Below are positions 1,236 to 8,460 of a stretch of DNA of 45,664 nt, in pieces (position 1 is the first letter of the stretch; every line of letters starts with the position of its first letter). The DNA is from Phycisphaerales bacterium (GTDB lineage Bacteria > Planctomycetota > Phycisphaerae > UBA1845): NCBI GenBank assembly GCA_013140575.1, contig JABFSN010000018.1, positions 1-45,664 on the forward strand, given 5' to 3'. Position numbers and translations under genes: made by a program. A model generated the notes under the pieces. That model made no database searches, was not told the origin of the DNA, and saw only the letters and a list, made by a program, of their open reading frames with translations.

Positions 1236-1838
1236 ATGGATCCGATGTACTTGCCCGGCGTGGAACACGCGGAAGTCGGCGGCGCCTACGGCGACCGAAT
1301 CGGGGCGATGAAGTCGCAGGGGCTGCCGGTTCCGCAGATCTGGCACTTGTTCGGGTTCAAGCACGACGCGACCCGGCACCTGGCGCAGTACACGCAGCAG
1401 GTCATGCGCGGTCCGTCCCCGTTGCCGCCCGGTCAACGGGAGTTGATCGCCGCGTTCATTTCGCGGAAGAACCAATGCCGATTCTGAGTGGGCGCCCATG
1501 CCGCGGTCGCGGCCGAACTGCTGGGTGATCAGGCGACGGTGGACGCGGTTCTGGACGACTACCGGACGGCGTCGATTTCCGAAAAGGATCGCGCCCTGTT
1601 CGCGCTCGTCGACCGGATCAACCAGGCGCCGGAACGTGTTTCCCGTGAAGATGTGGAACGCGGACGGCGGGCCGGCTGGTCCGACGAGGCATTGTACGAC
1701 GCCATCACGGTCTGCGCGCTGTTCCGATTCTACAACACCTGGATCGACGCGACCGGCGTGCAGGACATGCCCGCGGCCATGTACCATCACACCGGCAAAC
1801 GTCTGGCCGCCGACGGCTACGCGCCGGCGGACGGGTAG
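1236..1838 (+). CDS. CMD/AhpD-like peroxidase-related protein with in-frame TGA (candidate selenoprotein)
   Basis: Read through one TGA at 1485-1487, the frame gives a single 200-residue protein of the carboxymuconolactone decarboxylase/AhpD-like fold. Members use a CxxCxxxH motif as a thiol redox centre. Here the motif reads Cys81-Arg-Phe-TGA-Val-Gly-Ala-His88, so the stop lies exactly where the His-activated second cysteine belongs. Both sides are family-like (PPGQRELIAAFISRKNQC before, VGAHAAVAAELLGD after) and the frame does not shift. A hairpin follows the TGA at SECIS distance. The likely product therefore has selenocysteine at residue 84 and would be a peroxidase or thiol oxidoreductase. 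GGGAG lies nine bases before ATG 1236; ATG 1230 and GTG 1227 are alternatives. A standard gene caller would split this into two fragments. A nonsense mutation or base error is the main alternative. Confidence 0.8.
1485..1513 (+). promoter_or_regulatory. Candidate bacterial SECIS element after the TGA
   Basis: The TGA at 1485-1487 is followed 12 bases later by GCCGC-GGTC-GCGGC (1500-1513), a perfect 5-bp stem with a GGUC tetraloop. Bacterial SECIS hairpins lie inside the reading frame and present a G or GG(U) in the apical loop roughly 16-37 nt after the UGA. Here 17 bases separate the TGA from the loop. CCCA 1495-1498 can also pair with TGGG 1522-1525 across an asymmetric internal loop. The stem is short and the DNA GC-rich, so chance formation is possible. 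Confidence 0.55.
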
Positions 1839-2273: not shown

Positions 2274-5200
2274 CTACCGCACGTACACGGTCACTTCGGC
2301 GTTCGACCGCAGCGGGATGACCCGCCGACCGGAGCCGACTAGAACCGTGGCGTTTTCACCATCGCGAACCGCCAGTCGGAACGTCCCGCTCGCGTCGTCC
2401 GACGCGTGGAACGTGAACGATCCCAGATAGGCCTTGCCCGGGTTGGTCACCGAACCGGCGCCCACCGCGGCCGCCAATCGGCCCGTGGACAAGTCCTGCG
2501 CCCGGTAGCTTTCGTGGTGCCCGAACACGTAACTCTTGTGGTTTACGTTCACCGCCAAGTTACGGAGTTCGAGCGCCCCGCTCCGGCCGCCGCCCGCATC
2601 CACGGCCAACTGATAGCCGCGGAAATCGGCCACGCCGTCCGCATACACGTGCACGATCACGTCCTGCCCGGCACGGACCGCGGACTTCTCCGGCACCAAC
2701 TGCAACGACACCGGAGCGATGGCCCGACTTGCATCGGATCGCAACGCTGCGTCGTCACCAACCGGGCTCGCCGGCGAAGGCCCCGCCGAACAATTGCACG
2801 AGTTTACCCCCGAGAATGCATCGAGCACGCCGAGGATATCGAATATGTCGTGCATCCCGTCGCCCGTGCAGTCGGCGAGGTCCGTGTCCAGCGACGAACA
2901 CGTGGTGAACACGCCCGCGAAGCCGTCCAGCACGCACAGGATGTCGAATATGTCGACCATCCCGTCGTGATTAACGTCGCCGAACACGTTTTGCGTGTGC
3001 GTGCAACCGGCGGCGGTGCACTGGTCCCACGTACAGACGTCGTTGTCGTCGCAGTCCTCCTGCGTCGTGCACGCCGGCGCTGCGCAGTCGCAGCAGATCC
3101 GGTTGATGCCGCCTCCGAGGGGCACTACGGTCTCAACGCAGGTCATGCCCGGCACGCACAGACCGACGCACCTGGGCGCCAATCCTGGAACCGGCGCCTC
3201 AACCACCTGGCACGAGTTGGGATCGCGGCACTCGCAATCCGCGACCGAGGTCACGCCCGTGAGCACGTTGTAGTCCATGCACCGCGGGATGCACTGGTCG
3301 TTGCCGGCCTGGCCGATGCCCATCCGGATGGTACCGGTGGTCGAGCCCATCATTCCGGCCAGCAGACTGCCGGGTGCACCCTGGAACTCGATCTCGTAGA
3401 AGATGTCGAAGAAACTATCGACCGCGAAACCGCTGCCCGGCGGGCCCTGACGCACCAACGTGGTATGGCCCGGGCTGGGCATGCCGAAGCCCGTTCCGGC
3501 CCTGATCCGCAGCAGATCGAAGTCCGGATCACCCGGCGGCAGTTGGCCTTGCAGCATGAACATCTCGGTCGGGAACGACTGCACCTCCGACCCCGGCGTG
3601 CGCGGTCCGGTATGGGTCTGGCACTGCACCTGCATGGCGATGTTGCGGTTGAAGCCGCCCAGCGGTCCCGTTCCCTGCATCTGCATGAAGAGGAACGAGT
3701 CGAAGGTCTCGATCGCCCCACCGAGGCTCCCGCCCGGCATCTCCGTCTGATTAAAGAACTTGTCGTGATTCGCGTCGACCTCGATCGTCGCGCCCGCCGG
3801 CAAGCCCGCAATCATCTCGTGGAGATCCTGCGGACTGACGTACCCGCCGCAACCCGCCGGCGGCAGCGTAATCGTCCCGCCGCCGTTGTCGGGCACCACG
3901 CAGGGCGCGCCGGCCGGCGTCGGTGAAGGCGGACAGGCAAACGGCAGACAATCCGCAACGCCGGACAGATCCGGTTCGCAATCCACCACGACTGGAGTGC
4001 AATCACAGCAGATTTCATAACCGCCGCCCGCGATCGGCGTGATCGTCTCCTCGCACGTCTCGTTCGTCGGGCACGCCCCCGTGCAGAACGGCACGACACC
4101 CGGAGTTACGTCCAGATGGCAGTCATTCGGCAGGCGGCAGTCGCACTCGATGACCGTGACGTTGCCCTGCACAACCTGCGCACAGCGCGGTTGGCAGTTT
4201 TCCTGTGTCGGCACGATCGTTGTCTGGCAGTCCTGCGTTTGCAGGTTGGCACACGGCGACACAGGCGGCGCCGGCAGCAGCGGGCACACCGAGTTCGGCG
4301 GCTCGCAAGCGTCGTCCGTACCGTTCATCGGATTGAGGTCGCCCAGACAGGTCGAACCTGCGCCCTGCGGCGTCCCGCCCGCCTCGTCACAGCACAGCGG
4401 ATCCATGTTTAGGCAACCGCCTCCAGGGTTGGGGATGCAGCAGGCTTCCGTGGCCGCGCCGCACATCGAACCCGCGGGCTGAACCGAGGCGCCCGGAATC
4501 ATCGCGCAGCAATCGGGATCGAGATTGGAGCACACGCCATTGACGCAGCACGGTTGCGGCGTACACGGAGTCAACGCGCCCGCGATGAACGTGCCGTTGC
4601 AGCACTCCGAGAACTCGATCGAGCAGTTGCCGGCCGCGTCGCAGCACTTGCCCTGGTTTCCGCAGGTGGCCGCGCCGGTAAACATTCCGCCCTGCGCTTC
4701 GCAACACGACTGGAACATGATCTGACAGGTCCCGTTGATGCAGCAGGCGCCCAGCGGTCCGCACGGGACATTCGGGCCCAACCACGTCCCCTGGCAGTCT
4801 GCAAGGGTGGTGATGAGACAACCGTTGCCCAGCGCGCTCAATTCGCAGCACGCACCCGTGTCGCACGGATCGTCGGGAATCTCTTCCCAACTCGTATCGC
4901 TGTGGATGTTCACGCCGTGCTTCGGCGGCGGCGTGCAGTGCGACACAAACTTGATGACACCGACGATCGGACCGCCGCCCACGTTCGTAAACGGAACGTC
5001 CGGCTGACCGTTGGGCGTGACGAACCACAGTTCCGCGGGGGGCAGTTCAATAACGGGCCCGCCCACCACGTGAACCGCGTTGAGCGCCCGCACGGTCATG
5101 CCCATGCCCTGCAATTCCATGTCCACAAAGACATCGAAGAAGCTATCCACCGACGGCAATTCCAACGCCGGCGGCGGCTCGGACACCACCGCGCCGTGAC

Positions 5201-7991
5201 TCTGCTGGTTGGGGTTCAGCGTCATGCGAACCGCTCCCAAGACTGGATGTGCGCCCACCAGGTCCATGGCGATGATCTCGGTCTCGATTTGCGGCGCCCC
5301 CGGCAGCTTGTTCGTGCGACTGATCACCGTCGGTCCCTGCAGCTGCAAATCAAACATCTGCCCCGGGAACGCGTTCAGTGCAATCGTCACCTGCGCCGTC
5401 GTGACCGGCATCTCGTCGACCCCGCCCTTCGGATACTTCCGGATCGGCGGCCGCGGCTGCGGTAGTGCCGGCACGCCCGGATTCACCGGTTGGCACCACA
5501 GCGCCTTGCGGCACGGCGTGCCGTCGGCACAATTGGCGTCCGTCTGGCACGCCATACCGTTCTCGCACGTTCCGTATTTGTGCAGATTCAGCAGGTAAAA
5601 CGCCATGTCGATCGACTTGGTTGGATCGTCGCAGCACTGCGTGTAGGCCGGCTGGCTGCAATGCAGCTCGTTCATCCAGTGATAGACCCACTCGCCCGGG
5701 CAGCCCATGTGGAGCGACCCCATGAAGGCGTCGTCCTTGTGCTGGTAGCCCGGAGGCGTCGTGTGCCACCCCCAGAAATCCTGGGTAATGGTCTCGCCGG
5801 TTTTGATCCCCTGCCACTGACCGGGGATCGGTCCGGGGATGGGCACCAGACCGACCTCCGCCTGGATGCTCAGCCAGTAGGTCTTGCTCGGACGCGGCGT
5901 GAAAACGCCCGTCGTCGGATCGAATTCATCGGGCGCCGCGAAGTTGTGGTCCAGACACTGCGGCAGGTCGACGTCGTAACAGAAGATACGATGACCGTCC
6001 CAGCCGGTCTTGGAAATATCCGTCCGCGTCACCTGATTATTCGGCACCACCCACTGAATCAGGAGGTTGCCCGGGCGGCTGACGGCCGTGTTGCAGTCGG
6101 ACGCGCCGCCTACCGCGTTGACGACGAGGGGACCAAGGCCCTGCTGGCAGGTCGTGATCAGGCTGGGGTTCAGGTACCCGCAGATGCGGACCATGCTCCC
6201 CACGCCGTACGTCCCGAGCGCCGCGGGATTAAAGATAAGGTATTGGAACGAGCTGCCCTTGGGTTGGAACAGGATGCAGCCCGCTTCCACGCCCTGAATT
6301 AGTGTTCCGCACAGATCGATCGGGGCCAACCCCGGCGGCGTCGGTCCACAAGCCGTCGGCGGAACGTCCTCGTGGACGGCGACGAACCACCCGTCCGGAT
6401 TCCGCAACGATGTACCGCCGCCCACGGGCGGTTCAAACGCTGAATCAAAGTAACTTCCGTACCATCGGATGCGGTCCACCGACCGTCGTGGGGCGGCGGT
6501 GTTGCAGCAATCGAGACCGCCGGTCGCCAGACACTGGTAAACCCCAAGGTCGCCCAAATTGATCAGGCCGTCGCAATTCAGATCGGCGCGATCACAGCCC
6601 GCGGCCCCGCCCCCGCCAAAGCAACTGGCGATGAAACCCTGATCTGTAGCGTTGCAAAGACCGTCGGCGTTGAAATCGCAGGTGCAATCGGGGCATTCGA
6701 CGCAGAAGTCGTCGGCGATGACCCAGTTTTCGTACGGCGGAGGGTCGTTCGGGCAGGTCACCGTCACGCAGTTGTCGCCGATAAACGGCTGGCCCTGCCA
6801 TATCTGAGTGCACTCAAGCGGAAGAACGTCGATGCACCGTGTGCCGGGCAGCTTGGCCGGCTTGCAGCACGCCGCGGTGACCTTGTCATCGTTGGGAATT
6901 TTGCCCGGATTGGCCGGCGCGATGCCGTGGGCGATCAACATGGCCAATTCCGGCGAGATGCCCGGCTTGCGGATGTCCGGCGGCTGACCGCCGCCCCCGC
7001 ACTCGCAGGCCAACTGACAGGGACCGTTCGCCAGACCGCCGCAACCGACATCCCACCCGCCGAAGCAGCAAGCTGGATTAATGCCGCACACACACTGCTC
7101 GCACGCCGGATCGCCGCAGCCCGGCTGAAACGGGGGTTGGGGGTCACAGCACGGACCCACGCCGGCGGGGAGGGGCGCTCCGCAGCCTTCCATCCACTGG
7201 CCAGGGAAAAAGTCGCCTGCGGCGAATCCGTTGTTCGTGGCGGTATCGACCAGGCCGTCGCAGTCGCTGTCAAAACTGGTGCCCGGGTCGAGGTGCGACA
7301 GCGTCGGTCCGGAGGCCGATCCGCTGTGCGTCCACCAGCCCGTGGCGGTAAGTGACAAGGTCGTGGTCAACGACACCGGGCTGCCGACACCGCCGCCGAC
7401 GCGCGAAAACGTCAGCACGGCGTTGACCGGCAGGGTGTTCGTGTAGGAACCGCCCTCGGCGCACTCGTGATTCAACGTCATCGTGCCCGTGGTCTGCGTC
7501 GCATCCAGGCACACGTCCACATCCCACTGTTCCGTGGAACTGTTGGCGTAAGTGACCGTGATCGGGTCGCAGCTTGCCAGGTGCAACGCCACGATCTCGA
7601 TGGGGATCAGCTCGCCGACGCTGCCGGTGGTGAACGTCGGTGCCGTGGGCGCCAACCGACGCACGATCGTGTCGACCGGCGCGTTGGGCACGGGGGTGGG
7701 GAATATGGTCAGCGGAACACCCCCCAGCACGACACCGCTGTTGTACTCCACCGAACTCGAGCCGCCGAGCGACGTAAAAAAGCCGGCGGAGATCGTTTGG
7801 TAGTCGTAGGTTCCGCCGCCGCACGGCGTCACCCAAAGATCGTCACCCGGGCTGACCGGTCCGCTCGCCGCGACCGGTTGCACGGCCCATGCCAATGTGG
7901 CCGCGACACCGGCGACGAACGTCGCACGCCGCCACGGTCGATTCGTTTCACCTGACATCCAACACCGTCCCATTTGTTTCACCATGTTCAT
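2274..7991 (-). CDS. Giant secreted Cys-rich dockerin/cohesin-like protein
   Basis: The product is 1905 residues from ATG 7991 (MNMVKQMGRCW). That start precedes a signal peptide with hydrophobic core FVAGVAATLAWAVQPVAASG; an upstream GTG frame lies in the leader and lacks one. In order come a beta-rich N-terminal region, Cys clusters, a first dockerin-like pair (CDFNADGLCNATD, DLNCDGLINLGDL), a beta-rich middle and a dense run of Cys repeats such as CCVNGVCSNLDPDCC. Then comes a module of about 200 residues starting CVVPDNGGGTITLPPAGC, a C-terminal dockerin pair (GDVNHDGMVDIFDILCVLD, GDGMHDIFDILGVLD) and a cohesin-like beta domain (about 145 residues). Likely extracellular or surface-attached. 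The module recurs twice in the neighbouring paralogue. No catalytic domain was recognised, so the role is unknown; adhesion or scaffolding is inference. Confidence 0.85.
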   Translation of the reverse strand: MNMVKQMGRCWMSGETNRPWRRATFVAGVAATLAWAVQPVAASGPVSPGDDLWVTPCGGGTYDYQTISAGFFTSLGGSSSVEYNSGVVLGGVPLTIFPTPVPNAPVDTIVRRLAPTAPTFTTGSVGELIPIEIVALHLASCDPITVTYANSSTEQWDVDVCLDATQTTGTMTLNHECAEGGSYTNTLPVNAVLTFSRVGGGVGSPVSLTTTLSLTATGWWTHSGSASGPTLSHLDPGTSFDSDCDGLVDTATNNGFAAGDFFPGQWMEGCGAPLPAGVGPCCDPQPPFQPGCGDPACEQCVCGINPACCFGGWDVGCGGLANGPCQLACECGGGGQPPDIRKPGISPELAMLIAHGIAPANPGKIPNDDKVTAACCKPAKLPGTRCIDVLPLECTQIWQGQPFIGDNCVTVTCPNDPPPYENWVIADDFCVECPDCTCDFNADGLCNATDQGFIASCFGGGGAAGCDRADLNCDGLINLGDLGVYQCLATGGLDCCNTAAPRRSVDRIRWYGSYFDSAFEPPVGGGTSLRNPDGWFVAVHEDVPPTACGPTPPGLAPIDLCGTLIQGVEAGCILFQPKGSSFQYLIFNPAALGTYGVGSMVRICGYLNPSLITTCQQGLGPLVVNAVGGASDCNTAVSRPGNLLIQWVVPNNQVTRTDISKTGWDGHRIFCYDVDLPQCLDHNFAAPDEFDPTTGVFTPRPSKTYWLSIQAEVGLVPIPGPIPGQWQGIKTGETITQDFWGWHTTPPGYQHKDDAFMGSLHMGCPGEWVYHWMNELHCSQPAYTQCCDDPTKSIDMAFYLLNLHKYGTCENGMACQTDANCADGTPCRKALWCQPVNPGVPALPQPRPPIRKYPKGGVDEMPVTTAQVTIALNAFPGQMFDLQLQGPTVISRTNKLPGAPQIETEIIAMDLVGAHPVLGAVRMTLNPNQQSHGAVVSEPPPALELPSVDSFFDVFVDMELQGMGMTVRALNAVHVVGGPVIELPPAELWFVTPNGQPDVPFTNVGGGPIVGVIKFVSHCTPPPKHGVNIHSDTSWEEIPDDPCDTGACCELSALGNGCLITTLADCQGTWLGPNVPCGPLGACCINGTCQIMFQSCCEAQGGMFTGAATCGNQGKCCDAAGNCSIEFSECCNGTFIAGALTPCTPQPCCVNGVCSNLDPDCCAMIPGASVQPAGSMCGAATEACCIPNPGGGCLNMDPLCCDEAGGTPQGAGSTCLGDLNPMNGTDDACEPPNSVCPLLPAPPVSPCANLQTQDCQTTIVPTQENCQPRCAQVVQGNVTVIECDCRLPNDCHLDVTPGVVPFCTGACPTNETCEETITPIAGGGYEICCDCTPVVVDCEPDLSGVADCLPFACPPSPTPAGAPCVVPDNGGGTITLPPAGCGGYVSPQDLHEMIAGLPAGATIEVDANHDKFFNQTEMPGGSLGGAIETFDSFLFMQMQGTGPLGGFNRNIAMQVQCQTHTGPRTPGSEVQSFPTEMFMLQGQLPPGDPDFDLLRIRAGTGFGMPSPGHTTLVRQGPPGSGFAVDSFFDIFYEIEFQGAPGSLLAGMMGSTTGTIRMGIGQAGNDQCIPRCMDYNVLTGVTSVADCECRDPNSCQVVEAPVPGLAPRCVGLCVPGMTCVETVVPLGGGINRICCDCAAPACTTQEDCDDNDVCTWDQCTAAGCTHTQNVFGDVNHDGMVDIFDILCVLDGFAGVFTTCSSLDTDLADCTGDGMHDIFDILGVLDAFSGVNSCNCSAGPSPASPVGDDAALRSDASRAIAPVSLQLVPEKSAVRAGQDVIVHVYADGVADFRGYQLAVDAGGGRSGALELRNLAVNVNHKSYVFGHHESYRAQDLSTGRLAAAVGAGSVTNPGKAYLGSFTFHASDDASGTFRLAVRDGENATVLVGSGRRVIPLRSNAEVTVYVR

Positions 7992-8460
7992 AATCCCCGA
8001 ATCTCCTCGCCGGTCGCTTCGCGCCGGCCGCCCTTGTGTTGCGCTGGTGCTAGACGGTCGGAACTCCGTAGCGCAGACGCCACGAAACACGCTACTCCAT
8101 CAACACGACAACCAACCCAGAAATCGATCCGGAAGTGATGACCGCGACGGAGCCCGGGTGGAATTCCCGGCTGCACTCCAACCCGGTCGCCCTCCCCCTT
8201 CTGCTAAATCCACCGCCGAGGGTGACACCCATCGGCAACAATCGACGCTTCATTTCGTTTCCCCCGCGCCCGCAATTCTACGCAACGCGGAAAGCCCGCG
8301 AACCCGATGCGCCAACGGCGAGTGAACGCTTCCGCGTATGAACGCCTTCGCGAGTGAACCCGCCGTGCGGACATGTTGCACGGCGCGCCCCGGTCGTCGA
8401 GGCACACCTCCGCCCTTTGCGTCTGAACGCGTAATGGGACCTACGACCGGCTCAAACAAC
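7992..8460 (-). promoter_or_regulatory. Long conserved 5' leader of the first giant gene
   Basis: About 470 bases separate the predicted promoter from ATG 7991, and the region aligns along its length with the leader of the paralogue (11395-11848). Shared plus-strand blocks include GTGTTGCGCTGGTGC, CACGAAACACGCTA, AACACGACAACCAA, GGTCGCCCTCCCCCT and TCTGAACGCGTAATGGGACC. GAGGAG lies about 11 bases before the start. It may be a regulatory 5' UTR or simply the remains of a duplication. No known riboswitch was recognised. Confidence 0.5.

Follow-up and report, generated by a model that had tools for sequence, protein, structure and literature searches.

The reading frame at positions 1236–1838 of the window (the whole 45,664-nt stretch of DNA analysed here) contains one in-frame TGA, which raises the question of whether this codon is a terminator, an accident of sequencing or decay, or a codon for selenocysteine (Sec). 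We consider it highly probable that this frame is a selenoprotein gene belonging to the AhpD-like "peroxidase-related" family, with Sec84 inserted through a hairpin downstream of the TGA and with a probable role in peroxide or disulfide reduction. Computation establishes the reading frame, membership of the family and its fold, conservation of the TGA, the presence of the machinery genes and the constraint on the hairpin. The features to which the argument refers are as follows.

256–1209, + strand: dapF (diaminopimelate epimerase), co-directional and 26 nt upstream of the Sec-AhpD gene; not a conserved neighbour
1223–1227, + strand: GGGAG, a likely ribosome-binding site spaced 8 nt from the ATG at 1236, picked by eye
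1236–1838, + strand: Sec-containing AhpD-like gene (TIGR01926, CMD fold), 200 aa plus TAG stop, from frame, family and fold
1440–1442, + strand: Glu69 (GAG), conserved active-site Glu equivalent to AhpD Glu118, from alignment and PMC3141380
1476–1478, + strand: Cys81 (TGC), the resolving Cys that partners Sec in the CxxU motif, conserved in homologues
1485–1487, + strand: in-frame TGA, Sec codon (residue 84) where AhpD has its peroxidatic Cys, from frame and homologues
1497–1499, + strand: His88 (CAT), conserved active-site His equivalent to AhpD His137, from alignment and PMC3141380
1500–1513, + strand: bSECIS-like hairpin GCCGC-GGUC-GCGGC with its loop at 1505–1508, from folding and homologues (rules in PMC13188914)

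The TGA at codon 84 is the sole internal stop of the 200-codon frame, which runs without a frameshift to a TAG at 1836. When the TGA is translated as Sec, the motif reads KNQC81-R-F-U84-V-G-A-H88, so that the first-pass annotation was right in placing the TGA exactly at the second redox position of a CxxCxxxH-type motif (C-x-x-TGA-x-x-x-H). Matches to two family profiles span the TGA, one to Pfam CMD (39.5 bits against a cut-off of 23) and one to NCBIfam TIGR01926 (100.3 bits against a cut-off of 81.8), the latter making the protein a member of that family. Annotation that treats TGA as a stop only would cut such genes into two pieces.

The AlphaFold model built on the family alignment (pLDDT 96.5, pTM 0.92) displays a predicted all-helical fold of the AhpD-like "peroxidase-related" type. 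Its best structural match is 6k40 from D. radiodurans (Z 22.2), and together with 2oyo, 3c1l, 2prr and 2pfx this structure shares the fold over 183–185 residues (Z 20.7–22.2) at 22–26% identity, with a CxxC aligned to the CxxU of the window protein and thus Cys for Sec. The confidence of the model, the Z of 22.2 and the conserved residues all agree with the CMD/AhpD fold, that is, an all-helical protein with a Glu...CxxC...His catalytic hairpin; among the homologues, Glu69, Cys81, residue 84 and His88 hardly vary. Sestrins share the AhpD-like fold as well, with a weak sequence match (E 0.0064) and a structural Z of 14.5 to the window protein.

A proton relay of Glu118, Cys130, Cys133 and His137 in M. 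tuberculosis AhpD is supported by mutagenesis (PMC3141380). This protein is distant from the window protein (Z 10.9, 13% identity), and the spacing of its four residues is identical to that of E69, C81, U84 and H88, including the 12 residues from Glu69 to Cys81. We take Cys133 to be the attacking residue of AhpD, and Sec84 occupies its place. In the mechanism that we propose, SelB with Sec-tRNA(Sec) would bind the hairpin downstream of the UGA at 1485–1487 and insert Sec84, after which translation would continue to the TAG at 1836. Within the Cys81-x-x-Sec84 pair the attacking residue would be Sec84, made reactive by His88 and Glu69, and it would either reduce organic hydroperoxides or act as a thiol-disulfide adaptor by way of a selenenylsulfide with Cys81, which a cellular thiol donor would subsequently reduce. 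For this protein we infer actual Sec insertion, peroxidase chemistry, a substrate and an electron donor; as to function, a Sec-dependent peroxide or disulfide reductase appears the best reading.

The strongest competitor concerns the chemistry. Sec might serve another reaction of the same fold, either reductive dehalogenation of the kind performed by the debrominase Bmp8, which has this fold (Z 16.7), or a regulatory disulfide switch, as the Sestrin2 match at Z 14.5 could suggest; deiodinases dehalogenate by Sec. The nearest solved structures and the name of the family nevertheless point to peroxidase and antioxidant proteins, AhpD's Glu-Cys-Cys-His set is present in full, and no conserved gene neighbourhood hints at the substrate. 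We therefore regard such other chemistry as unlikely, although it deserves to be kept in mind, and retain peroxide or disulfide reduction as the probable role.

The planctomycete genome containing the window (5.05 Mb, 96% complete, a draft of 268 contigs) was searched for selA, selB, selC and selD, as the first-pass annotation had advised, and carries all four, the set expected in the genome of a bacterial selenoprotein. A tRNA-Sec (selC) with anticodon UCA scores 66 bits, above the Rfam cut-off, and selB adjoins selA on contig 263, both above cut-off. The selD gene has an in-frame TGA of its own within the motif SCAG-U-AGK (locus L018, 1531–1533) and is itself a selenoprotein gene. A general reassignment of TGA in this genome, for example to Trp or Gly, would also have TGA read through in both the AhpD-like gene and selD. 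However, selA and selB terminate with TGA, so the codon still serves as a normal stop in this host, and a genome-wide change of code does not account for the finding. The UCA-anticodon tRNA that was found is tRNA-Sec, codon 84 aligns with Cys in the Cys-type homologues, and table-11 frames of up to 1938 codons occur in the window, so that we give reassignment virtually no credence. The host genome also harbors a second, distant Sec-AhpD paralogue (contig 95, about 3648–4073; L076/L180) with a CHYU motif and 30% identity, in which Val replaces the conserved Glu69 and the hairpin is placed differently.

Homologues were drawn from 200 relatives, from the GTDB contig collection and from a draw over the phylum, and were reduced to codons. 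The contig search was not biased toward TGA, because one of its patterns carried Cys at the site of codon 84. Among the first 96 aligned homologues, codon 84 is TGA in 91 and TGT or TGC in 5, with no further stops, which supplies the comparison of Cys and TGA at residue 84 for which the first-pass annotation had called and places the in-frame TGA in register with the redox Cys of homologues. At E ≤ 1e-40 all 37 distinct homologues carry the TGA, and so does every Planctomycetota match checked at E ≤ 1e-25. Judging from record titles, these 37 homologues span at least five phyla, namely Planctomycetota, Acidobacteriota, Gemmatimonadota, Krumholzibacteriota and Chloroflexota, and the cultured isolates Gemmatirosa kalamazoonensis and Roseisolibacter sp. 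H3M3-2 are among the TGA homologues. Mean identity of the homologues to the window protein is 57% before codon 84 and 56% after it; together with the two profile matches across the TGA, this bears out the earlier claim that family sequence continues on both sides with no frameshift.

Such a pattern leaves little room for a sequencing or assembly error, or for a decaying pseudogene in which the TGA is a mutated TGC or TGT and the second half is dead. The draft state of the assembly, with its 268 contigs, would permit an error; the same TGA is nonetheless present in 37 of 37 independent homologues, isolates included, conservation is equal on both sides of it, and further stops are absent. Chance, decay and sequencing error are excluded by the conservation of the TGA at codon 84, and the probability that we leave to them is negligible. 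The first-pass annotation had named scattered other stops in close homologues as the sign of a decaying gene; the close homologues retain the single TGA, and with the machinery in the same genome its selenoprotein reading is upheld. That the TGA is a true terminator between two cooperating pieces, residues 1–83 and a 116-aa frame opened by the GTG directly after the TGA, is wholly improbable, since relatives have ATC, ATA, ATT, ACC, ACG, GAC or CTG in place of the GTG, the split would part Cys81 from its pairing residue, and the Sec machinery is present.

Reading the TGA as Sec would call for a bSECIS element, and the hairpin begins 12 nt after the TGA, with 17 nt between the TGA and the GGUC loop. 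Published rules ask for a loop of 3–9 nt with a G in its first two positions and an upper stem of 4–16 bp, located 16–37 nt from the TGA and with an MFE ≤ -7.5 (PMC13188914). The window hairpin satisfies all four rules, the folding energy of 1482–1530 being -16.2 kcal/mol, and the test in coded form is passed by 32 of the 37 homologues compared with 18% of all TGAs in the window. Energy alone was rejected as evidence, being ordinary for the GC-rich composition (z = +0.65). Covariation alone was likewise judged weak: paired changes in the stem are seen (C-G to U-A and C-G to G-U), and a partner slid by +3 columns scores equally, so that a third-base test was used instead.

This synonymous test covered the 45 codon columns at which several sequences conserve a four-fold residue. 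Mean third-base entropy is 0.54 bits at hairpin codons 89–93 versus 1.34 elsewhere, and codons 89, 90, 91 and 92 have the four lowest values of the 45 columns, for which we claim no p-value, given the relatedness of the sequences and a choice of codons made with the fold in mind. The synonymous constraint is the decisive test for the hairpin, and its strength means that the family provides a clean data set, drawn from nature, on the rules of bacterial SECIS elements. In the family's more distant TGA paralogues the hairpins differ and sit elsewhere: one type, GACCTC...GAGGTC, starts some 18 nt past the TGA, and another reads GGAGC...GCTCC. Within this single protein family, SECIS-like hairpins of at least three kinds occur, and their distances from the TGA vary.

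The distribution of Sec and Cys forms offers a further level of detail. In a quick maximum-likelihood tree of 109 Sec and 19 Cys proteins (128 in all), only 3 Sec/Cys changes are needed, in whichever direction, versus 18 with shuffled labels. The window protein falls within a supported group of 37 rows, each of them Sec, and no Cys member was found among the close homologues (E ≤ 1e-40). The full-length reading is established for the whole clade, with members from Planctomycetota, Acidobacteriota, Gemmatimonadota, Krumholzibacteriota and Chloroflexota. In the genomes behind the loci from the GTDB contig collection, selA is above cut-off in 20 of 25; Roseisolibacter and one further genome (G002) have selB and selC and no selA match. 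Three small Actinomycetota MAGs carrying a TGA homologue yielded no selA, selC or above-cut-off selB, probably as a result of incompleteness. Across relatives, the TGA gene and selA co-occur (p 8e-6 overall), a signal that was set aside as a reflection of kinship: within the order there is no association (44/9 versus 50/10), because selA is found in nearly all its members. In one planctomycete genus group, Sec-AhpD genes occur as tandem pairs in which each copy has the TGA (L063 3001–4190; L116, L117 and L120).

On plasmid 2 of G. kalamazoonensis KBS708 (NZ_CP007130.1), a Sec-AhpD gene immediately precedes selA-selB on the 5' side, and selD and selC occupy the opposite strand. The whole module fits within 5.1 kb, at about 455134–460223 (L156 3135–8224), and its gene identities are backed by Pfam SelA, SelB wing and AIRS domains. 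A second, lone Sec-AhpD lies on the same plasmid about 100 kb from the module (L147). In 20 other selA regions inspected, no AhpD gene was found near selA, and the linkage is therefore special to the G. kalamazoonensis module. We tentatively suggest, as a possibility that we would not yet favor, a Sec-obligate AhpD-like subfamily that has spread horizontally across phyla and is able to travel with a selA-selB-selD-selC module carrying its own Sec-AhpD client. If true, it could be the enzyme, as the trait under selection, that takes the Sec code to new hosts. A cultured Gemmatimonadota strain with this plasmid module offers a practical system for studying the spread of the selenocysteine trait.

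How much of this is new can be judged against earlier surveys. Work on the Sargasso Sea in 2005 (PMC1088965) and on Global Ocean Sampling data in 2008 (PMC2398784) had already yielded CxxU AhpD-like and CMD-domain selenoproteins, in agreement with the first-pass annotation, which mentioned AhpD-like selenoproteins from metagenomic surveys. A 2026 catalogue has the entry "AhpD-like protein, TIGR01926, CxxU" (PMC13188914), and for Planctomycetes there is a report of both selenoproteins and Sec machinery (PMC4807772). The supposed novelty of a C-x-x-U form beside dapF consequently fails, as the form was already known and catalogued and the dapF neighbour is not conserved. The known AhpD-like selenoproteins (COG2128/TIGR01926; for example MCB9421940.1) are of the same family and share the CxxU with Sec at the second redox position. 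Unlike these, which come mostly from marine metagenomes, the window gene has a genome context with machinery and belongs to a clade with the TGA in all members found. NF041238 (AhpD_rel_CFYUT) and NF053654 (GroundWater_YciW) are likewise AhpD-related and annotated as Sec-containing, but the window protein is a member of neither (43 bits against a cut-off of 175, and 22.7 against 310, respectively). Our literature search found no report of an all-Sec, multi-phylum AhpD-like clade, nor of the G. kalamazoonensis plasmid module of selA-selB-selC-selD with its own Sec-AhpD; the one paper in the literature searched that mentions Gemmatirosa together with selenocysteine is, to go by its title, on soil metaproteomics.

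The surroundings of the gene were also considered. No dapF was found near other homologues, this neighbour being peculiar to the host genome, and conserved neighbourhood was dropped as a clue to function, the neighbours being common only to very close relatives. A local scan of the window for further CxxU or UxxC frames gave nothing that convinced by eye. Convergent with the selenoprotein gene lies a Cys-rich frame of 1938 aa (2274–8090, - strand), which displays a match to DUF6073 and a sub-threshold match to dockerin.
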